DNA from: Candidatus Nitrospira nitrosa
GTDB taxonomy: Bacteria; Nitrospirota; Nitrospiria; Nitrospirales; Nitrospiraceae
Assembly (NCBI RefSeq): GCF_001458735.1
Contig: NZ_CZQA01000001.1
Coordinates: forward strand, 1,240,001 to 1,304,000
Length of the DNA: 64,000 bases
Direction: 5' to 3'
The notes beneath the pieces were generated by a model. It had not been told where the DNA came from. It worked only from the letters and a program-made list of their open reading frames with translations, and did not search any database. Numbering within the stretch: position 1 is the first letter of the stretch; each line of letters starts with the position of its first letter. Both the position numbers and the translations under genes were made by a program. Below are positions 23,796-62,531 of the stretch, one piece after another.

Positions 23796-24889
23796 TGAAT
23801 TCAAGGTTGAAGTGCAACACCTGCGGCCCGCGCAAAGACTTCGGCTGGGGTCCGATAGGCGAGGCATTTCCGGGGTCGATTATTCAATTCCTCCACGACC
23901 GACGCAAGTCGGTGTGCCGTGATCGTGGAGAAATCCGTCTGTTTCGGGAAATAATCGCGTAATAAGCCGTTGGTGTTCTCATTCGTCCCACGTTCCCATG
24001 CCGCATAGGGAGCGGCAAAGTACACCTGGAGCCCCAGGGTCCGTTGAAGACAGCGAAACGACGCCCATTCACTCCCGTTATCCACGGTGAGGGTCCGCCG
24101 TACATGCGCTGGAAGCGGGTGCAGAAGTTTCCGCGTGGCCACCGTGACCTCTGTAGCAGTCCGGCGTGACACCTTGGCCGCCAGAAGAAAGCGACTGCGC
24201 CGGTCCACGTGCGTAGCCACGAAGCCGCGCTGGCCTCGACCGACCACGAGATCCCCTTCCCAATCTCCCAGGCGTCCTCGGCGTTGTGCAATGGCCGGTC
24301 GCTCGGCGAGAGACACGCGTCCTTTGAGGCGTGGAGCACGCGGCCCACTCCCGTAGCGTTTCCGACGCCGACAATGGTGGCGGAGGTACCGCGACCAAGA
24401 TCCTCCCGTGCGGTGATCAGCTGCCAACCATGTATAGATCGTTTGATGGCTGATCCGCATCTGAGTGGCGTGGGGATAGTCAACCCGCACACGGTGAGCA
24501 ATCTGTTCGGGCGACCAGCGGCACTGCAGCTTCTCTTGGACATAAGTTGCCAGCATACCACTCGTCAGATGTGACCGCCGAATGTTACGGCGACGGCGCT
24601 GCGCATCGCAATGGGCCCAGTACCCAGCATAGGCTCCACTTCCATCACCGTTCCGTCGCAGTTCCCGGCTGATGGTACTCGGCGCTCGCCCGAGCTGGGC
24701 TGCAATGGACCGAATAGACCAGCCAAGCATTCGCATCGGGGCCATCATTGACCGTTCTTCCAAGGTGAGGTGCTGATAGGGCATGGCAGACTCCTCGTTG
24801 CTGGAGGTGAAATGTCTGCCCCACTCTATCGAACCGCACCACCCAAATCTCTTCGTCGCGACCTGCGTTGCACTTCAAATTAGAATTCA
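23796..24889 (-). mobile_element. IS30-family element, copy 2 (intact)
   Basis: 1,094 bp between 23-bp imperfect inverted repeats (TGAATTCAAGGTTGAAGTGC... at the left, GAATTCA at the right). Counting two further bases shared by both copies (CT left, TC right), the flanks carry a 3-bp direct repeat TAC (23791-23793 and 24892-24894), within the 2-3 bp range of the IS30 family. It is inserted in the upstream region of a DUF1810 remnant, whose promoter-like sequence continues on the far side (GACATCATGTCTTGGAATG). Confidence 0.92.
23801..24784 (-). CDS. IS30-family transposase
   Basis: 327 residues. The N-terminal helix-turn-helix (LTLEERSMMAPMRMLGWSIRSIAAQLGRAPSTISRELRR) is followed by a second DNA-binding segment and a DDE integrase core with GDWEGDLVVG, TVDNGSEW and the Glu of ERGTNENTNG, so all three acidic residues are present. 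The stop codon lies inside the left inverted repeat. GAGGAGTCTGCC precedes the ATG. The gene is the intact version of the frameshifted copy at 2489-3449. Confidence 0.95.
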   Translation of the reverse strand: MPYQHLTLEERSMMAPMRMLGWSIRSIAAQLGRAPSTISRELRRNGDGSGAYAGYWAHCDAQRRRRNIRRSHLTSGMLATYVQEKLQCRWSPEQIAHRVRVDYPHATQMRISHQTIYTWLAADHRTGGSWSRYLRHHCRRRKRYGSGPRAPRLKGRVSLAERPAIAQRRGRLGDWEGDLVVGRGQRGFVATHVDRRSRFLLAAKVSRRTATEVTVATRKLLHPLPAHVRRTLTVDNGSEWASFRCLQRTLGLQVYFAAPYAAWERGTNENTNGLLRDYFPKQTDFSTITAHRLASVVEELNNRPRKCLAYRTPAEVFARAAGVALQP

Positions 24890-25984: not shown

Positions 25985-27976
25985 ATGGCGACAGGCATCC
26001 CAAACAAGAATGGCAACGGCAATGGAGGTGCTCTTGAACTCACCTATCCTGGAAAGTTGTCGCAAGCGCAAATTCTTGCCGAGCCGGCCCTTGCGAAATT
26101 TTATGCGGCCCAACAGGTCGACTCACTAAATCGTCTGTATTGTGGAGACAATCTTGCGGCACTAAAGGCACTGATTGAAGACCCGGAGATTCGCGAAAAA
26201 GTCACACTTGTCTATATTGATCCACCGTTTGCAACCAAAGGCACATTTCTTTCTCGCAAACAAAAAATGGCCTATGACGATGACCTATGCGGGGCTGTGT
26301 ATGTCGAAAGTCTCAGACAACGCCTCCTTCTTCTTCGGGAACTTCTCTCCTCTTCTGGCTCGATATACCTGCATCTCGACGAAACCATGGTGTTCCAAAT
26401 GAAACTCGTCATGGACGAGGTGTTCGGAATCTCGAACTACCGCAACATGATAGTCAGGAAGAAATGCAATCCAAAGAATTACACTCGAAAAGCATACGGC
26501 AACGTTGCGGATTTCATTTTGTTCTACACCAAGACAGACCGATACACATGGAATCGCCCCGTTGAGCCGCTCACCGAACAGAGCACTAAAGAATACCACT
26601 ATGTGGAACCCGAGACGGGTCGACGTTTTATGAAGGTTCCGGTCCATGCTCCCGGGAAGCGCAATGGGGCTACAGGTGGAACTTGGCGCGGCAAGCTTCC
26701 ACCGCCGGGCAAACACTGGCAGTACACACCAGAGACCCTTGATGGGATGGATGCGAGGGGCGAGATTTTCTGGTCGAAGAACGGAAATCCGAGACGAAAG
26801 GTGTATTTGGATGAACACCCAGGGGTCGGCATTCAAGATATTTGGCTGGAGTTCAGAGATGCACACAATCAGAACATCGAGATAACGGGGTATCCTACAG
26901 AAAAGAACCCAGACCTTCTCCGGCGCATCATCCAAGCATCTTCCAATCCAGGGGATTTGGTTCTGGATTGCTATGCTGGATCAGGCACGACGATGGCCGT
27001 GGCGAATGATCTCCAGCGGCACTGGATTGGTGTCGATCGGAGCCCCGTAGCAATTAACACCATCTTTGAGCGTTTCGAACGTGGATTGATCCCCATGGGG
27101 GATTACGTTTCAAAACCGCCCAAGTCTATAAAGGCAGATCCTGAGCCCTCGCTGTTCGATTCTCTTGAGGAGATTCCCTCAACGGCAATGCCACAGCATG
27201 ACTCCACGCATGCACCTATCACCGATTTCTCGATCTATGTCGGAGACACAGCGCAATCAGAGATTTCGAAGGCGGTTGGTAGGTGGATACAACACCATGG
27301 TAGCAAGCGTGATGAGCACAGAATGGTCGTGTCCGAAGGCGGCAATCTAGCTGCCGCATGCTACAGACTTCATTGCAAAGACAAGCGGCTTGCGGGCATT
27401 ATCGACACCGTTGGGCCATGTAATCTGAGACCTCATGCACCTGAATTTGACTTTCTTGTAGACGCGATCATTGGCCAGCAACTCTCGAAGCAAGCTGCCG
27501 ACACAATCTCTTCCAGATTGAGAGAGTTGTTTAGAGAGCGCAGACCCACGCCGAAGGCGTTTATGAAAATCCATAAAGCGGATATCCTGTCAATTGGAGT
27601 ATCTCAGCGAAAGTATGATTACATCTTTGATCTTGCTCAACGTATTCACCAACGGGAGTTGCGCTTGGAAACACTGCCAGATCTTACCGATGCAGAGGTA
27701 CGTAACAGCCTGACAGCAGTGAAAGGTATCGGAGATTGGACTGTTGACATGTTTCTGCTTTTTGGCCTCGGCAGATTGGATGTCTTCCCTGTTCACGACT
27801 TGGCTTTGAGGAAAGCGATGGCCTCTGTCTATGGAGTTAAAGTCGGCGATCATGAGTCATTGGTTCAAATAGCCAATCGCTGGAGGCCATATCGCAGTGT
27901 CGGATCATGGTATATGTATCGAACTGCAAATGCCCAACAATCACTTGCGGCGGACGCGGACAAGCCGCGCCGCTGA
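25985..27976 (+). CDS. DNA methyltransferase fused to AlkA-like glycosylase
   Basis: 663 residues in one uninterrupted frame. Residues ~45-375 are a beta-class amino-methyltransferase: motif IV D79-P-P-F comes first, then the target-recognition region, then the AdoMet-binding motif LDCYAGSGTT (~327-336), so it should make N6-methyladenine or N4-methylcytosine. After a linker (~375-460), residues ~467-650 are an HhH-GPD glycosylase of the AlkA/Mag1 type: GQQLS, the helix-hairpin-helix VKGIGDWTVDMFLLFGLG and the catalytic Asp605 in VFPVHDLALRK. Both catalytic centres look intact. AGAGGATATAC precedes the ATG. The last codons run into an attC-like site. I know of no described system with this fusion. 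Confidence 0.9.
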   Translation: MATGIPNKNGNGNGGALELTYPGKLSQAQILAEPALAKFYAAQQVDSLNRLYCGDNLAALKALIEDPEIREKVTLVYIDPPFATKGTFLSRKQKMAYDDDLCGAVYVESLRQRLLLLRELLSSSGSIYLHLDETMVFQMKLVMDEVFGISNYRNMIVRKKCNPKNYTRKAYGNVADFILFYTKTDRYTWNRPVEPLTEQSTKEYHYVEPETGRRFMKVPVHAPGKRNGATGGTWRGKLPPPGKHWQYTPETLDGMDARGEIFWSKNGNPRRKVYLDEHPGVGIQDIWLEFRDAHNQNIEITGYPTEKNPDLLRRIIQASSNPGDLVLDCYAGSGTTMAVANDLQRHWIGVDRSPVAINTIFERFERGLIPMGDYVSKPPKSIKADPEPSLFDSLEEIPSTAMPQHDSTHAPITDFSIYVGDTAQSEISKAVGRWIQHHGSKRDEHRMVVSEGGNLAAACYRLHCKDKRLAGIIDTVGPCNLRPHAPEFDFLVDAIIGQQLSKQAADTISSRLRELFRERRPTPKAFMKIHKADILSIGVSQRKYDYIFDLAQRIHQRELRLETLPDLTDAEVRNSLTAVKGIGDWTVDMFLLFGLGRLDVFPVHDLALRKAMASVYGVKVGDHESLVQIANRWRPYRSVGSWYMYRTANAQQSLAADADKPRR

Positions 27977-52966: not shown

Positions 52967-53960
52967 AGAGGTACACAGTATAGCCGATATAGAAGAGCGC
53001 ACCAGCCGCCAGTAACCACGGTCGCCAGCGCCCTCCAATCAGGATCTGGAGGAGGCAGAGTCCTACCGCCTGTACAGCCAAGACCATGGTGGTCAAGGCA
53101 GTGGGGGCGATGACCCACTCCGTTCCGATCAATCCGAGTGAGACGGGGAGCGTGCCTTGAAACACCATGGCACCCGTCACATTGGCCACGGCGAGCTTGT
53201 CCTTTTTCCGATACAACCATAGAAAGCTGTTGGACATCTCCGGTAATTCCGTGGCCAATGGTGCGATGAGGAGGGTCAAGATCAAAGGCGACATTGAGAA
53301 CAATCCCGCCATCGATTCTGCCGCCAACACGAACAAATGAGCACCCATGATCAAGCCACCAAGCCCTAACAGGGCTTGAAATGCAATCATCGGATGCGAG
53401 GGCGTCGTCGCGGTTTTGTCGAAGATGAGGGGGTCCAGCTCACCGCCTTCGCCCTCTCCAGCAGTCGGTGCAAACTTCAGTTTCATGTAGTAAATGTACA
53501 AGCAGATCAACCCTCCGGCGGCAATCAGATGGATCAGTCTCGATCGTTCAAAGGCGCACCCCAGTGCCACGAGGTAACCAATCATGAAAAACGTCAGGTC
53601 CGTGAGGACATCGCGGTAATTGAGATGAAATTGCGCGGTGCGCTTGCCCGCTCGTGCGTACAGCACCACCAACAGAGCCAAGAGCGGCAGTACGAGCGTG
53701 CTGAGCATAAACGGCGCACCGAGGATGGCGCCTAATCCGACGTCGATCTCTTCGTCGCTTTCGCCGAAGAAAATGGCAATGATCGGAATCGAGGTTTCAG
53801 GGAGCGTTGTGCCGATGGCCGCGAAGATACTCCCGACCGCGCCTTCAGAAATCCCGAGCCGTTTGCCCAGCCATTCGATCGCATTAGTGAACAGCGCACA
53901 TCCACCCAGTGTGACGACAACAGAAACGAGGAACAGGAGAATATAGTACAGGGTGCTCAT
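52956..53960 (-). CDS. sodium/calcium exchanger family protein
   Basis: 334 residues with about ten membrane helices and the two alpha-repeats of the CaCA superfamily (GSIFAAIGTTLPETSIPIIAI near residue 43 and LIAPLATELPEMSNSF in the second half). Acidic residues in both repeats (E of TLPE and ELPE) coordinate the cation. It exchanges Ca2+ (or another cation) for Na+ or H+. It overlaps larC by four bases (ATGA) and pdxA by 11, so the three are translationally coupled; a metabolic link is not evident. Confidence 0.92.
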   Translation of the reverse strand: MSTLYYILLFLVSVVVTLGGCALFTNAIEWLGKRLGISEGAVGSIFAAIGTTLPETSIPIIAIFFGESDEEIDVGLGAILGAPFMLSTLVLPLLALLVVLYARAGKRTAQFHLNYRDVLTDLTFFMIGYLVALGCAFERSRLIHLIAAGGLICLYIYYMKLKFAPTAGEGEGGELDPLIFDKTATTPSHPMIAFQALLGLGGLIMGAHLFVLAAESMAGLFSMSPLILTLLIAPLATELPEMSNSFLWLYRKKDKLAVANVTGAMVFQGTLPVSLGLIGTEWVIAPTALTTMVLAVQAVGLCLLQILIGGRWRPWLLAAGALFYIGYTVYLYAS

Positions 53961-55162
53961 GCGCGACCCCGCAGTTTCTTCTGGGTCGCTTGTCGATAGG
54001 CGTGCAAGGCTTCCTCCATGACGGTCTTCAGCGGACGACCGGATCGTTTGGCGATAGATTGACAGTCGATATATTCTGGTGCTGCCTTGTCCCAGCCCGC
54101 ACCCAGATCAGCCACCTTCATGCGAACGGTTCCTCCCTGTATTGAGACCGGGACGATACGGCGCGGGAGGATCTGGCGAGTGATTTCTTGCAGTCGCACG
54201 CCGAGCGTGGGCGTTTCCTGGAAGAGGATCTCAAGAACCGCGTTGGTCTGTTCCTTTGGAGTGAGACAGGTCAGTAACACACCTGGGCGACTTTTTTTCA
54301 TGACAACAGGACCCAGGGCAACATCGAGGGCGCCGAGATCGAAGAGTCGATCCATGATGTGCTCATAGATTTGTGGATTGAGGTCGTCGAGATTCGTCTC
54401 AATTTGCATGATGCGTTCGGTGTGATAGGTCTCCGGTGTCGAGTCGTCCTGAAGAAAGACGCGCAGCACATTTGGCCAGTCTTCTGGATCGCGGTCTCCG
54501 GCTCCATAGCCGACCGCGAGACTACGCATGACCGGCAAGGGGCCGAATCCCGATGCCAGGGTCCGCACGAGTGCCACGCCGGTCGGTGTGGCGAGTTCAT
54601 GCCGTGGGCCCTCGGAATAGACCGGAATACCTTTGGCCAGTGCCGTCACAGCCGGCCCCGGCACAGGTAAACGACCATGGGAGGTTTGAATCGAACCAGC
54701 TCCCACATTGATCGGGGAGGAAGTCGCACGAGTCACATTCAGGAGATAGCAGCCCAGGATTCCTCCCACCACGTCGATGAATGAATCGATGACGCCGACT
54801 TCATGGAAGTGCACGTCTTTCGTCGGCACCTGATGGGCGAGTCCTTCCGCGTCGGCTAATAGGTCGAAGACTGACAGACTGCGTGCTTTGACCGGCTCTG
54901 GGAGCGTGCTGCGGATAATAATGCTTCGAATCCGGGAGAGCGTGAGAGGTCGCTGAAATCCCTGTTGGATCAGAACGTCTACTTTCACGGCATGGAGTGC
55001 GCCACGATGCACCGCTCGCTTGCGTAATGTGTAGCCGGATAGTTTCAGCCGATTAAGGCCATTGACGAGGTCTGTCCATGGCAGACCGGCACTGACCAAT
55101 GCGCCCAAGACCATGTCCCCGCTCACGCCAGAAAAACAATCGAAATGCAGATGTCGGCCCAC
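53957..55162 (-). CDS. larC: LarC, nickel insertion for the pincer cofactor
   Basis: 401 residues in a single frame, matching LarC (HFDCFSGVSGDMVLGALVSAGLP, DVHFHEVGVIDSFIDVVGG, ETNLDDLNPQIYEHIMDRLF, CLTPKEQTNAVLEILFQET). It inserts nickel into the pyridinium bis-thiocarboxylate precursor in a CTP-dependent reaction. Unlike the Lactiplantibacillus gene, which needs a programmed frameshift to join two halves, this one is uninterrupted. larB is 770 bases upstream on the same strand. The target enzyme (LarA-like racemase) and LarE are not in the window. Confidence 0.93.
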   Translation of the reverse strand: MGRHLHFDCFSGVSGDMVLGALVSAGLPWTDLVNGLNRLKLSGYTLRKRAVHRGALHAVKVDVLIQQGFQRPLTLSRIRSIIIRSTLPEPVKARSLSVFDLLADAEGLAHQVPTKDVHFHEVGVIDSFIDVVGGILGCYLLNVTRATSSPINVGAGSIQTSHGRLPVPGPAVTALAKGIPVYSEGPRHELATPTGVALVRTLASGFGPLPVMRSLAVGYGAGDRDPEDWPNVLRVFLQDDSTPETYHTERIMQIETNLDDLNPQIYEHIMDRLFDLGALDVALGPVVMKKSRPGVLLTCLTPKEQTNAVLEILFQETPTLGVRLQEITRQILPRRIVPVSIQGGTVRMKVADLGAGWDKAAPEYIDCQSIAKRSGRPLKTVMEEALHAYRQATQKKLRGRA

Positions 55163-55933: not shown

Positions 55934-56695
55934 TTACCTCTCACCTTTCACACCTAACATGTTGATCCGATGTGCGAGACAGGCGGCGCCGAAGCCGTTA
56001 TCAATATTCATGACGCCCACACCAGCTGCACAGGAATTGAGCATCGTCAATAACGCCGCTACTCCTCCGAAACTGGCTCCATACCCTCGGCTCGTTGGGA
56101 CCGCGATGACCGGACAGTGAACGAGTCCCCCTACGACGCTTGGCAAGACCCCGTCCATTCCAGCCACCACGATAATAACTTGTGCATCAAACAAGCGATC
56201 TTTCTTTCCAAGCAGGCGATGGATCCCCGCGACTCCAACGTCGTACAGTCGCTCGACACGACTTCCCATCACTTCAGCCGTGATGCGAGCCTCTTCCGCT
56301 ACCGGGACATCAGCTGTACCGGCAGTCACCACCAGAATCTGGCCTTGCGCCTTCTGCCGTGCCGGATGGATCGCGACAAGGCGTGCGTCAGAATAGTACC
56401 GCGCGCGACGATCAAGACGGCGAATTGCTCGGGCGACCGTCGGTTCCGCACGGGTGGCGAGGAATGGGCCTCCTTTTTTAATCAAGGCTCGAGCGATCGC
56501 GACGACCTGTTCCGTAGTTTTCCCCTCGCAGAGGACGACTTCGGGAAATCCTTGCCGCAGCGACCGATGGTGGTCGAGCGAGGCAAAGCCGAGATCTTCA
56601 TACGGGAGAGATCGCAGGCGCTGGAGCCCTTGTTCTACGGTCAGTTGTCCCATATGAACCTGTTGAAGTAATCGTTCAAGCCCTTCGGTAATCAT
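55934..56695 (-). CDS. larB: LarB, pincer cofactor carboxylase/hydrolase
   Basis: 253 residues from ATG 56695, three bases after the gpsA stop region. The C-terminal half resembles PurE (AIR carboxylase): TAGTADVPVAEEA, YDVGVAGIHR, VAGMDGVLPSVVGGLV and the TSRGYGASFGGVAALLTMLNSC tail of LarB proteins. It carboxylates nicotinic acid adenine dinucleotide, starting nickel-pincer cofactor synthesis. The start follows AAAAGGGTTGA. Confidence 0.93.
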   Translation of the reverse strand: MITEGLERLLQQVHMGQLTVEQGLQRLRSLPYEDLGFASLDHHRSLRQGFPEVVLCEGKTTEQVVAIARALIKKGGPFLATRAEPTVARAIRRLDRRARYYSDARLVAIHPARQKAQGQILVVTAGTADVPVAEEARITAEVMGSRVERLYDVGVAGIHRLLGKKDRLFDAQVIIVVAGMDGVLPSVVGGLVHCPVIAVPTSRGYGASFGGVAALLTMLNSCAAGVGVMNIDNGFGAACLAHRINMLGVKGER

Positions 56696-56697
56696 AT

Positions 56698-57714
56698 TCA
56701 ACCCTTTTCCAGTTTGGCATCCCGCTCCATGAGATCACTGACCGCCTGGCGACAGGACTTGTTCTCATGGAGGACGGCGTTGATCTCCTGAATGATGGGC
56801 ATCTCAACCTGGTGACGCAAGGCCAATGTGAGCGCGGCGCGAGCTGTTCTGACACCTTCGGCGACGGCCTGCATTCCGGTTACAATTGTCTCGAGCCGCT
56901 CACCTTTACCGAGTCGTACACCCACAGAATGATTTCGGCTGAGTGTTCCGGTACAGGTCAAGACCAAATCACCAACGCCGGAGAGTCCATAAAATGTGCG
57001 AGGATCCGCTCCCATCGCGACACCAAGCCGGATGATTTCTGCCAACCCACGGGTGATGAGGGCAGCGCGAGCATTCAGCCCGAGTTCGAGCCCATCGATA
57101 ACGCCCGCAGCCAACGCCATTACATTCTTCAACGCCCCTCCCAGCTGGACACCCAGTAGGTCGCTGTCGGCATAGACGCGCAACACCGGCGTCATCAAGG
57201 CGTTCTGAAAGCGCTGGACCAGCGGTGCGTTTCTGCCTGCGAGGCAAACGGCTGTGGGCTGACCCGCGCTAAGCTCAGCGGCGAAGCTGGGTCCGGAGAG
57301 CACCATCAGGGCGTCGTGCATGGAGGGGAGTAATTCATCCTCCATCACTTGGGTCATCAATTTGGCCGTCTCTTCTTCAATACCCTTGGTCGCGCAGATC
57401 AATGGGATGGGGTCGGATAAGAAGGGCCTCAGCTTCTGAAGCACTAGCCGCGTGGCATGGGAGGGCACGGCAAACACCAGCCCATCACACGAACTCGACG
57501 CCTCTTCCAAAGATGAAGTGGCAATCAATGCACGCGGGAGAGCAACGCCTTTGAGAAAAATCGGGTTTTCCTGAGAGGTGTTGATGGCGTGAACGACATC
57601 CCGTTCATAGGCCCAGAGACGTACCTCCAGCCCCTTCTCGGCCAGGTGTTTGGCCAGAGCCGTACCCCAAGCCCCGGCACCGATCACACACATCTTGCTG
57701 ATAGCACCAGGCAT
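56698..57714 (-). CDS. gpsA: glycerol-3-phosphate dehydrogenase [NAD(P)+]
   Basis: 338 residues with the nucleotide-binding motif GAGAWGTALAKHLAEKG, the conserved CATKGIE and the LSGPSFAAEL stretch, then GALKNVMALAAGVIDGLELG and the catalytic GLSGVGDLVLTCTG region. It reduces dihydroxyacetone phosphate to sn-glycerol 3-phosphate for phospholipid synthesis. ATG 57714 is preferred over the TTG six bases earlier. larB starts next to its stop, so they are likely co-transcribed. Confidence 0.96.
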   Translation of the reverse strand: MPGAISKMCVIGAGAWGTALAKHLAEKGLEVRLWAYERDVVHAINTSQENPIFLKGVALPRALIATSSLEEASSSCDGLVFAVPSHATRLVLQKLRPFLSDPIPLICATKGIEEETAKLMTQVMEDELLPSMHDALMVLSGPSFAAELSAGQPTAVCLAGRNAPLVQRFQNALMTPVLRVYADSDLLGVQLGGALKNVMALAAGVIDGLELGLNARAALITRGLAEIIRLGVAMGADPRTFYGLSGVGDLVLTCTGTLSRNHSVGVRLGKGERLETIVTGMQAVAEGVRTARAALTLALRHQVEMPIIQEINAVLHENKSCRQAVSDLMERDAKLEKG

Positions 57715-57975
57715 AAACAATCAGTTTGATCTCCACATGATCACCAACAACACCTGTGGGAGCCGATTATAGGAACGCGCTCAAGAACCTGTCAACGAAT
57801 GGGTAGGGGCTCCTATTCTCAAGATCCGCTAGAGGGGCATTGAAATCAATCTCTTGTGACGTGGCATGGAATCTGCTGTGCTGGTTGGTGAGGACTTGAA
57901 GAGCGTATTGGTCGGCCCGAATTAGGTCATAGGATGGGGCATAGCAATGAACACGGTGAGGAGGAGGAAGTAGTG

Positions 57976-59285: not shown

Positions 59286-60086
59286 TCAATCCAACGCCAA
59301 AGTCAGGCATTTAGCTGACCCACCAGATTTCATGAACTCATCGAGCTGAACTGCATGGGTGTCATATCGCCGTTCCCGTAGCAACCCTTCTGTCGTGGGA
59401 CATCCGGCGGGAAGAACCACATGCTTCCCCACACAGACGGCGTTGCAGGCGAACCTCAGCGCTTCGTGTTCAGGGACCACCAGACGCTGCTCGGTGGGGA
59501 CTCGGGTAGCCAGTACTTCTTGACCTTCCAGATCGAATGCGGCGGGGAAATACAGCAGCTCGCCGCCGCTTAATGGGCAGAAACAGGTATCGAGATGGTA
59601 GAAGCGATTGTCGACGAGTTCGAGCGGAATGATTTCTCGATGGAAGTGCTCGCTGAGGATCGGGTAGACACCGATATCCGATCGCTGCCGATACCCACCG
59701 AACCAGGTATCGGACAATCCCAGGAGATCGCCCGCGCCCTCAAAGTGAAGGCCGGTCTGCACCGTCATGACGTCATACCCCTGCCGGCGAAACCAACGCT
59801 CGACATGCGCCTCCTCTCGCTGGCGCTCAGGATGTCGGAAGTGACTCACGACGGCCGTGCGTCCGACAACCAGTCCGGCATTCGCCGTAAACACAAGATC
59901 CGGTAGTCCTGGAATGGGGGGCATTCGTTCGAGCATCACACCCAATTCCTGTTCAAGAATCTCCATCAAGGTATGCCACTGTGAGACGGCTCGCTCGTGG
60001 TCGACTCGGTTGCTGAGGCGCATCCAGGGATTGATCTCATACTCGATACCGAAAAAATCAGGTGGGCAGACCAGGAGGCGACTCAT
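59286..60086 (-). CDS. arginine dihydrolase/amidinotransferase-family protein
   Basis: 266 residues of the guanidino-group modifying superfamily (DDAH, arginine deiminase, ArgZ). Visible motifs: PDLVFTANAGLV, the FEGAGDLL motif with acidic residues, YHLDTCFCPL with the catalytic His, and GGSAKCLTL with the nucleophilic Cys near the C-terminus. Length matches DDAH/ArgZ. In cyanobacterial AgrE this domain is the N-terminal half and converts arginine to ornithine, CO2 and ammonia. Its start overlaps the LOR/SDH gene stop by four bases, so the two form a split AgrE; that reaction is the best guess. Dimethylargininase remains possible. Confidence 0.85.
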   Translation of the reverse strand: MSRLLVCPPDFFGIEYEINPWMRLSNRVDHERAVSQWHTLMEILEQELGVMLERMPPIPGLPDLVFTANAGLVVGRTAVVSHFRHPERQREEAHVERWFRRQGYDVMTVQTGLHFEGAGDLLGLSDTWFGGYRQRSDIGVYPILSEHFHREIIPLELVDNRFYHLDTCFCPLSGGELLYFPAAFDLEGQEVLATRVPTEQRLVVPEHEALRFACNAVCVGKHVVLPAGCPTTEGLLRERRYDTHAVQLDEFMKSGGSAKCLTLALD

Positions 60087-61327
60087 GCTTGCCTTCCCAG
60101 AGCCCGAGCCAGTTCTGTGAGAAACGATGCTGCGTCCATGACAAGACCGACGGCTTGAAAGCTGCCGCGATCGGCTAATTTGGTAGGGACTGAGGGATTC
60201 ACGTCGACACAGACTGTCGGGATGGTCGCCGGGAGCAGATTGCCGGTGGCAATGGCATGCAGCGTGGACGCAACCAACAGCGCCAATCCCACACCGGGAA
60301 TCATAGCTCGCATGGCGCTTTGTGCTTCGACAGAATCCGTGATCACCCCAGGCAAGGGGCCATCGTCACGGATTGTCCCAGCGATGACGACCGATACCTC
60401 TTGACGGACACAGGCTGCCATTATCCCTTGCGTGATCACACCGGAAGTCACGGCTGCCTGAATACTGCCGATAGTACGAATGCGATTGATGGTCCGTAAA
60501 TGGTGTTCGTGGCCATGGGGAACTGCACGCCCGGCTGTGAGTCCGTACCCGAGCGAAGTGCCATACAGGTCGGCTTCCATGTCATGCGCAGCCAGTGCGT
60601 TACCGCAGAAGAGCACCTGGACAAAACCCTGTTCGATCAGCCACGTGAGCGGCTCCCGGCCACCGGCATGAATGATGGCCGGTCCGCCGGCAAGCAACAC
60701 TTTGGAGTCAGGTTGCCCTTTCTGGTATTGAGCGCGCAATCGTCTCATCCGAGCCGCGACATCAGCGATGACGTGCCCATGGGGTCGCTCCGCCGAGACA
60801 TGCGACTCCATGAATCCAAACACATCCCGCTCTTGCGGACGCTGCAAGGGAATGACCCGCACGCCAGTACGGCCGACGACGACTCGATTGCCACGGCGAA
60901 CCTCGCCCATCGGAACCGCGCACGCTGCCATGCCTTGTTCATCCACGAGGATCGCAAGGTCCATCTCGATGCGATCGACATCCAGCCACCGGCCATTGAG
61001 CCGAATCTGAGTGGGTAAGTGGGTCGTGGCGTAGAAATCGTCGGGTAACAGGCCATCGGCTGGCGCTTGATCAGTCCGACAGTCAGCCTCACCTTCAACT
61101 AAGGCTCCATGCGGCTGAATCGCGTTCAGAATGTCATCCAGAAGACTGCGCGAGGTCGCTCGGATAACGATGTGAGCACTGGAGGGTTCTTCACGCGTCT
61201 TTCCGATGCAGACGTCTTCAAGGTCGAAGGTCCCACCCATCATCACGATGAGGTCCAGTACCTTCGCCAGCACGAGCGAGTCGATGATGTGTCCTTGCAG
61301 AACGACAGTTTCGTGATACGTGCTCAT
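60083..61327 (-). CDS. ornithine cyclodeaminase (LOR/SDH, TIGR00300 type)
   Basis: 414 residues with the LOR/SDH family layout: an N-terminal FDLEDVCIGKTREEPSSA region, the middle FYATTHLPTQIRLNGRW segment, the PAIIHAGGREPLTWLIEQGFVQVLFCGNALAAHDMEADL stretch and the C-terminal NAD-binding part (LLPATIPTVCVDVNPSVPTKLADRGSFQAVGLVMDAASFL). Members in archaea and the C-terminal half of cyanobacterial AgrE convert ornithine to proline and ammonia. It is transcribed first, and the arginine dihydrolase-like gene overlaps its stop. Together they would run arginine to proline with release of three ammonia. Confidence 0.87.
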   Translation of the reverse strand: MSTYHETVVLQGHIIDSLVLAKVLDLIVMMGGTFDLEDVCIGKTREEPSSAHIVIRATSRSLLDDILNAIQPHGALVEGEADCRTDQAPADGLLPDDFYATTHLPTQIRLNGRWLDVDRIEMDLAILVDEQGMAACAVPMGEVRRGNRVVVGRTGVRVIPLQRPQERDVFGFMESHVSAERPHGHVIADVAARMRRLRAQYQKGQPDSKVLLAGGPAIIHAGGREPLTWLIEQGFVQVLFCGNALAAHDMEADLYGTSLGYGLTAGRAVPHGHEHHLRTINRIRTIGSIQAAVTSGVITQGIMAACVRQEVSVVIAGTIRDDGPLPGVITDSVEAQSAMRAMIPGVGLALLVASTLHAIATGNLLPATIPTVCVDVNPSVPTKLADRGSFQAVGLVMDAASFLTELARALGRQA

Positions 61328-61398: not shown

Positions 61399-62445
61399 CT
61401 ATGGGGTGGGCTGAGATGGTTTCATCAATTCTCGTAACACGCTTGTCGCATAAGCACCTGGAGGCAGGCTAAATGAGAGAGTGAGGATATTCTGGTTCAA
61501 CGACCAGACTAGTTCGGTCAGCGGGACGCGAAGTGCACGACGTTCTCCTCGAAATCCGCAGGCCTTGGCGGCGGTAATGAGGACGTCTTTGGTAGCGCCT
61601 GCTTCGGTGATGACCGTCTCTTCGATCACACCGGGTTCACCTCCGGCCCAAGATACGCGTGACCCAAAGAGAATCCCGGTCGGGCTGATCTCAAAGCGAT
61701 CGGCGCGTGGTTGCTCCTTCTCCGCATCGTCAACCTGGAAGCAGGCGCCGTTGTCCTGTTTCATTGCCCAGTCGCCGATGAACAGACGATCAATCTGGTC
61801 GATCCGGCGGGCAAGGATCCGATTGAACAGAAAGGACTGATAGGTATTGAGATACCAGATACGCTGGTTACGATTCATCTTCTCGCGTCGACGGGCATCG
61901 TGGAGTAAGGCCGCGCCGGTTTGGTAGTTGGTCCCATCCTTTCCTTGCCGTTGAGGACCGAAGTAGTTCGGGACTCCGCGTCTGGTGAGCTGCTCAAGAA
62001 TCACTGGGACGGTGTCCTTGGCGTGGCCGGTAACTTCGCGAATGGTCAGATGGAAACGATTGCCCGCATGGTGACCGGTGCGAAGCCGATTGCGATGGCG
62101 TCCGAGGACGGTCACATTCAGGATGGTGTCATCGATGGAGAGGCTGGCGACCTGCTCAGGAGGCACACCTTGCAAAGAGATCATTTGCGTCGTGACGGCT
62201 CGCGCGTCTTTCAGGCCTGCGACCCCGATGGCTTGCGCCTTGATCCCCAATGTCGAGGAGAGCCGTCGGACGAGATCGGGCGTGGAAAGACCACGCTTCG
62301 TGATCGTGATGTAGAGGTGTTCTCCTTCGCCGCAGGGCAGGTAGAGGGGGCGCTCTTCAACCTGAAAGTCCTCAGGCACAGAACGCATTCGTCCACCGAT
62401 TCCGGGAAGATCACTCGTCAGAAATGGTTCGTTCAGTGGTTCCAT
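61399..62445 (-). CDS. truD: tRNA pseudouridine synthase D
   Basis: 348 residues from the internal ATG at 62445, chosen for GGAGA 5 bases upstream. TruD motifs: MRSVPEDFQVEERPLY, the catalytic Asp in GLKDARAVTTQ, HAGNRFHLTIR, RRGVPNYFGPQRQG and the C-terminal LPPGAYATSVLREL. It makes pseudouridine 13 in tRNA-Glu in E. coli. The divergent metallophosphoesterase gene starts 86 bases away. Confidence 0.95.
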   Translation of the reverse strand: MEPLNEPFLTSDLPGIGGRMRSVPEDFQVEERPLYLPCGEGEHLYITITKRGLSTPDLVRRLSSTLGIKAQAIGVAGLKDARAVTTQMISLQGVPPEQVASLSIDDTILNVTVLGRHRNRLRTGHHAGNRFHLTIREVTGHAKDTVPVILEQLTRRGVPNYFGPQRQGKDGTNYQTGAALLHDARRREKMNRNQRIWYLNTYQSFLFNRILARRIDQIDRLFIGDWAMKQDNGACFQVDDAEKEQPRADRFEISPTGILFGSRVSWAGGEPGVIEETVITEAGATKDVLITAAKACGFRGERRALRVPLTELVWSLNQNILTLSFSLPPGAYATSVLRELMKPSQPTP

Positions 62446-62531
62446 CGGTTCTCCGTACGGCATCGACTCAGTAACCGCATGCTATACTTTTTCTGATCCA
62501 TGGAGGGAAAAGGATTGAGGATAGGGTGAGT

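Follow-up and report, generated by a model that had tools for sequence, protein, structure and literature searches.

The window, i.e., the whole stretch of 64,000 nucleotides of the Candidatus Nitrospira nitrosa genome analysed here (contig NZ_CZQA01000001.1), carries two adjacent genes on the minus strand, which encode a TIGR00300-type ornithine cyclodeaminase (positions 60083..61327; 414 aa) and an ArgZ-like guanidino hydrolase, a predicted arginine dihydrolase (59286..60086; 266 aa). The cyclodeaminase gene is transcribed first and the hydrolase gene second, and in the window sequence their open reading frames share four bases, ATGA (60083..60086, minus strand), comprising the stop of the former and the start of the latter. 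This overlap, kept in 40 of the 52 distinct Nitrospirota genomes examined, likely reflects translational coupling. The preliminary description of this DNA had recognized the identities of the two genes, their four-base overlap and their order (LOR/SDH gene first, the reverse of AgrE), all of which we confirm; its designation of the hydrolase as the first protein does not hold, because the cyclodeaminase gene is the one transcribed first.

On the same strand, truD (61399..62463; PF01142, E = 2e-85) lies 71 bp upstream of the pair in a synteny conserved in relatives, and truD and the pair are possibly on one transcript. Two genes for the biosynthesis of the nickel-pincer nucleotide (NPN) are located 3–7 kb downstream, also on the minus strand: larB (55934..56701; NF033503, 290.9 bits, cut-off 175) and larC, with both LarC1 and LarC2 (53957..55162; TIGR00299, 183 bits, cut-off 90; NF052512, 137 bits, cut-off 50). 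Between the pair and larB, gpsA (glycerol-3-phosphate dehydrogenase; 56698..57720, minus strand) is a conserved neighbour that probably does not belong to the arginine pathway. LarE was found elsewhere in the genome, and LarA was not found in the genus in our Nitrospirota survey. While the pair itself had been noticed before, the downstream larB and larC, LarE at another place in the genome and the lack of LarA had been overlooked. Elsewhere in the window, an open reading frame for an IS30-like transposase (23801-24784), followed after 1.2 kb by a large open reading frame that may encode a DNA methyltransferase (25985-27976), was recognized from the sequence alone.

The cyclodeaminase belongs to TIGR00300 (457.9 bits, curated cut-off 410.8, residues 7–410) and contains the Pfam domains PF04455 (N-domain), PF21571 and PF21570 (Rossmann domain). 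It matches AgrE 6lrf (phmmer, E = 5e-92) and 3c2q (E = 5e-89), is 33–38% identical to AgrE/ArgZ, and has a predicted fold that superposes on 3c2q (Z 41.5) and on ArgZ 6juy (Z 36.9). In the family alignment, the window protein shares the residue at every column conserved in 90% or more of the other rows; the invariants of TIGR00300 include H13, H273, H357 and D375, and K383 is near-invariant. The protein very probably converts ornithine to proline and ammonia, as predicted from its family and residues. It resembles the stand-alone ornithine cyclodeaminase of Methanococcus maripaludis (3c2q) in being free-standing, in passing the family cut-off and in its matching fold, but differs in that its gene is followed by an ArgZ-like gene, in a genome that also encodes PutA. 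In three Nitrospiraceae assemblies, the cyclodeaminase gene is in two frames or truncated while the hydrolase gene is intact (G195:C22:696045-697341, G187:C1:2936975-2938181 and G206:C54:38138-38380), due to either sequencing error or decay.

The cofactor of the cyclodeaminase could be NPN or NAD+, with about even odds. NCBIfam currently names TIGR00300 ‘ornithine cyclodeaminase, nickel-pincer nucleotide-dependent’; our literature search found no publication behind this name, nor any linking TIGR00300 with NPN. In 53 of 58 Nitrospiraceae genomes, larB shares the strand of the pair and is within 2.4–5.4 kb of it. Across the survey of 245 Nitrospirota genomes, LarB was detected in all 69 genomes passing the TIGR00300 cut-off versus 121 of the 176 others, and among 50 named genomes in 24 of 30 with TIGR00300 versus 10 of 20 without it, both comparisons being confounded by ancestry and by the incompleteness of metagenome-assembled genomes (MAGs). 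The split pair may constitute an NPN-dependent arginine-to-proline pathway, in which the cyclodeaminase would be a client of the NPN made by the neighbouring larB/larC, a proposal that we hold to be as probable as its opposite. The co-occurrence with LarB was rejected as proof of NPN use; it is suggestive but confounded, and is contradicted in part by genomes that keep larBC and do not have the pair.

On the other hand, the larB/larC neighbourhood may be incidental, with the cyclodeaminase using NAD+ and NPN serving another enzyme. This explanation, which concerns only the cofactor, is a serious one to which we give somewhat below an even chance. The AgrE crystal 6lrg holds both ornithine and NAD+, and the predicted catalytic domain of the window cyclodeaminase resembles NAD-dependent deoxyhypusine synthase (Z about 17–18.6 over about 220 residues), although with only 11–16% identity, a different reaction and substrate, and an aligned part limited to cyclodeaminase residues 166–413. 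Among the matches listed beyond the TIGR00300 relatives, the fold search returned deoxyhypusine synthases and Sir2-type proteins and no LarA. In addition, three Nitrospiraceae relatives have lost the pair and keep the order truD-DZR-gpsA-larB-larC, with only the pair missing, and a fourth pair-less relative keeps larB and larC on a contig that ends before truD. Among the 245 Nitrospirota genomes, 190 are over the cut-off for LarB versus 69 for TIGR00300 and 21 for LarA, and more than 100 of them appear to make NPN without a known client enzyme. Against NAD+ stand the NCBIfam name and the confounded distribution of LarB described above. As a side observation, the distance of K383 of the cyclodeaminase from the end of the aligned part is about that of the catalytic K329 in human deoxyhypusine synthase, which is an estimate of position and not a residue-level alignment.

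For the hydrolase, Synechocystis ArgZ (6jv0; phmmer, E = 6e-72) and Anabaena AgrE are the best solved relatives. Its best family is NF052232, arginine dihydrolase (Arg_dihydro), with 279.3 bits; since this is below the curated cut-off of 450, the protein cannot be filed as a member and would not receive the name arginine dihydrolase from NCBI. None of the 245 Nitrospirota genomes passed this cut-off. The residues N19, N69, E116, H164 and C260 of the window hydrolase correspond to N22, N71, E118, H168 and C264 of ArgZ, and N22, D65, N71, R90, E118, R139, H168, D170, N219 and C264 (ArgZ numbering), all present in the window protein, are invariant in 113 of 113 homologues. The hydrolase thus keeps every catalytic residue of ArgZ/AgrE that could be mapped. 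N71 and C264 can be regarded as functional sites of ArgZ because they are mutated in PDB entries (ArgZ N71S and C264S chains; AgrE C264A, 6lrh), and Asn-71 was reportedly found to be essential for dihydrolase activity in the work on the AgrE structure.

A hydrolase that is instead a dimethylargininase (DDAH) or a one-step, arginine deiminase-like enzyme would stop at citrulline and leave the cyclodeaminase to use biosynthetic ornithine, so that the two functions would be loosely related. We consider this unlikely. The protein does show secondary matches to the DDAH models NF045659 (235.1 bits, cut-off 300) and NF045660 (72.5 bits, cut-off 340), as well as to PF19420, but it remains below both cut-offs and that of the third DDAH model, NF045658 (45.9 bits, cut-off 450), and scores higher on Arg_dihydro; its score for arginine deiminase (PF02274), 19.8 bits, is also under the gathering cut-off of 22.8. 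DDAHs (NF045658/NF045660) belong to the same guanidino-modifying superfamily, but in five DDAH-like paralogues of the order, the FTAN of ArgZ and the window hydrolase is replaced by FIED, with Asp instead of Asn at position 71, and one of these five reaches 214 bits on NF045660. The catalytic-residue alignment suggested in the preliminary description thus places the hydrolase on the side of ArgZ. The distinction is less sharp for the Mycobacterium-type hydrolases (NF045659), free-standing relatives on which the window protein scores lower than on NF052232 (235 versus 279 bits). A Nitrospirota lineage scoring best on NF045659 (f18) also has N71 and the FTAN motif, is found elsewhere in the tree and is without TIGR00300. 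N71 therefore separates the window hydrolase from DDAH but not from this lineage, and does not alone prove a second hydrolysis. Rv2323c, an NF045659-type protein, carries the annotation dimethylarginine dimethylaminohydrolase, but is itself required for the growth of M. tuberculosis on arginine (PMC4569260). Moreover, the pairing with an ornithine-using enzyme suggests that the hydrolase is an ornithine-producing partner.

This pairing is highly regular in the Nitrospirota. In the genome survey, which had been proposed beforehand for Nitrospira, all 71 Nitrospirota genomes with a recognizable cyclodeaminase gene had an ArgZ-like gene close behind it, in the same orientation. Considering this recurrence, the recurrence of the overlap, the TIGR00300 membership and the ArgZ match, the pair does not result from chance; it is real, conserved and functionally coherent. 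It is absent from Nitrospiraceae with smaller genomes (1.7–2.7 Mb), i.e., L072 (G159), L073 (G163), L074 (G236) and L071 (G102); truD and the zinc-ribbon gene now adjoin in the first three, and G102 is also without a PutA match.

A wider scan of 84,980 named species genomes, from which 80 diverse loci were taken, revealed separate pairs with the cyclodeaminase first also in the Planctomycetota, Omnitrophota, Methylomirabilota, Chloroflexota, Verrucomicrobiota and further Nitrospirota, so that the split layout is present in at least six phyla. The fused protein with the hydrolase first was seen in Cyanobacteria only, and an unfused pair with the hydrolase first at none of the 80 loci. The structures 6juy and 6lrf have the hydrolase domain at the N-terminus (residues 6–270) and the cyclodeaminase domain at the C-terminus (288–694), and the order of the window genes is thus opposite to that of AgrE (Anabaena Alr4995) and ArgZ (Synechocystis Sll1336). 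The window pair shares with these enzymes both domains, the conserved catalytic residues and the predicted overall reaction, but consists of two polypeptides that both fall outside the cyanobacterial clade. Likewise, the model for the bifunctional AgrE/ArgZ (NF052231, cut-off 1025) gives only 278 and 373 bits with the two window open reading frames, which are in the opposite order. The split layout is common in several phyla, and the fused cyanobacterial enzyme looks like the exception.

The linkage is looser outside the Nitrospirota: where the hydrolase gene was unlinked (23 genomes), a cyclodeaminase was encoded elsewhere in 9. In several phyla, the hydrolase occurs with no cyclodeaminase linked to it, so that an ArgZ-like hydrolase can work alone, a point against the two-protein unit proposed below. 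Inspection of the translated neighbours at 13 loci with unlinked ArgZ-like genes, without a family search, revealed no recurring partner such as ornithine aminotransferase. In the Gastranaerophilales and Vampirovibrionales, which are non-photosynthetic relatives of the Cyanobacteria, only a PF04455 domain (or little more) precedes the hydrolase, either standing alone or as an N-terminal fusion (L082, L083, L099, L119, L121, L133 and L140); searches of six genomes of these groups did not find the full catalytic domain of the cyclodeaminase.

The trees of the two genes agree in placing the window genes among the split pairs of Nitrospirota and in uniting the fused halves from Cyanobacteria in a single clade, separate from the split pairs (SH-aLRT 96 and 100). 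These trees are unrooted and quick, with several long branches and one archaeal sequence only; we therefore limit our claim to a fused form that is a separate clade, confined to one phylum in our sample, and the direction of fusion is not proven. The term ‘split AgrE’ used in the preliminary description, if understood as an AgrE taken apart, is not supported by this phylogeny or by the spread of the split layout. The special meaning that had been attached to the pair in a nitrifier is also weak, as it is equally present in Planctomycetota, Omnitrophota and others. Over the 49 split loci compared, the two sets of gene distances correlate (r 0.93, with 0 of 5000 Mantel permutations as high), which supports that the two genes travel together.

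We propose that the pair is a translationally coupled arginine-catabolic unit that does the job of AgrE with two separate proteins, a reading to which we assign a probability of roughly 80%. In this scheme, the hydrolase, the product of the downstream gene, would hydrolyse arginine twice to ornithine, CO2 and two NH3; the cyclodeaminase, encoded upstream, would cyclise ornithine to proline with the loss of a third NH3; and PutA, encoded elsewhere in the genome, would oxidise proline to glutamate. A comparable route through AgrE, which converts arginine to proline, CO2 and three NH4+, plus PutA has been described (PMC8262935). Our data demonstrate gene identity, adjacency, the conservation of residues, co-inheritance of both genes and the co-occurrence with PutA; the activities of both enzymes, hydrolysis in two steps, the role in physiology and the choice of NPN or NAD+ as cofactor are inferences. 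The earlier suggestion that arginine is turned into proline with release of ammonia is supported as a proposal by the conserved residues, the regular pairing and the presence of PutA.

The PutA of this genome comprises PutA_N, proline dehydrogenase (Pro_dh) and aldehyde dehydrogenase (Aldedh) domains. For the 50 genomes of the order that both searches covered, PutA was detected in 43 of 44 with the pair versus two of just six without it (Fisher p 3e-4). ProA and ProC are both encoded in this genome and are near-universal in the order, also where the pair is missing. For cyanophycin synthetase, no genome of the order exceeded the cut-off, the matches covering part of the model only. The presence of ProA and ProC, the lack of a detected cyanophycin synthetase and the association with PutA together make the pair look like one of arginine catabolism. 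Cyanophycin as the source of arginine was rejected, the partial matches being taken for Mur-ligase and ATP-grasp proteins.

In methanogens without the glutamate route, TIGR00300 homologues supply proline, and proline is also the end product here, but that the pair would be mainly a proline-biosynthesis route of this kind is very improbable given the near-universal ProA and ProC and its association with the proline-consuming PutA. An essential role in proline biosynthesis was rejected on the same grounds.

As far as our literature search shows, the unfused, reversed and translationally coupled layout and its breadth outside the Cyanobacteria are new, while both enzyme families were already known; no description of the pair in Nitrospira was found. 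Being small and separate, the proteins allow each activity, and any channelling between the two, to be tested one by one. Because the cofactor genes are near the enzyme gene and LarA is absent, the pair is also a suitable natural system for settling the question of NAD+ versus NPN in TIGR00300 enzymes. If NPN is indeed the cofactor, the many LarB-positive Nitrospirota without LarA or TIGR00300 would point to further undiscovered NPN enzymes. Overall, these results support that a route from arginine to proline, known from a single fused enzyme of Cyanobacteria, is widespread in other phyla as a unit of two genes, also in the family of Nitrospira.
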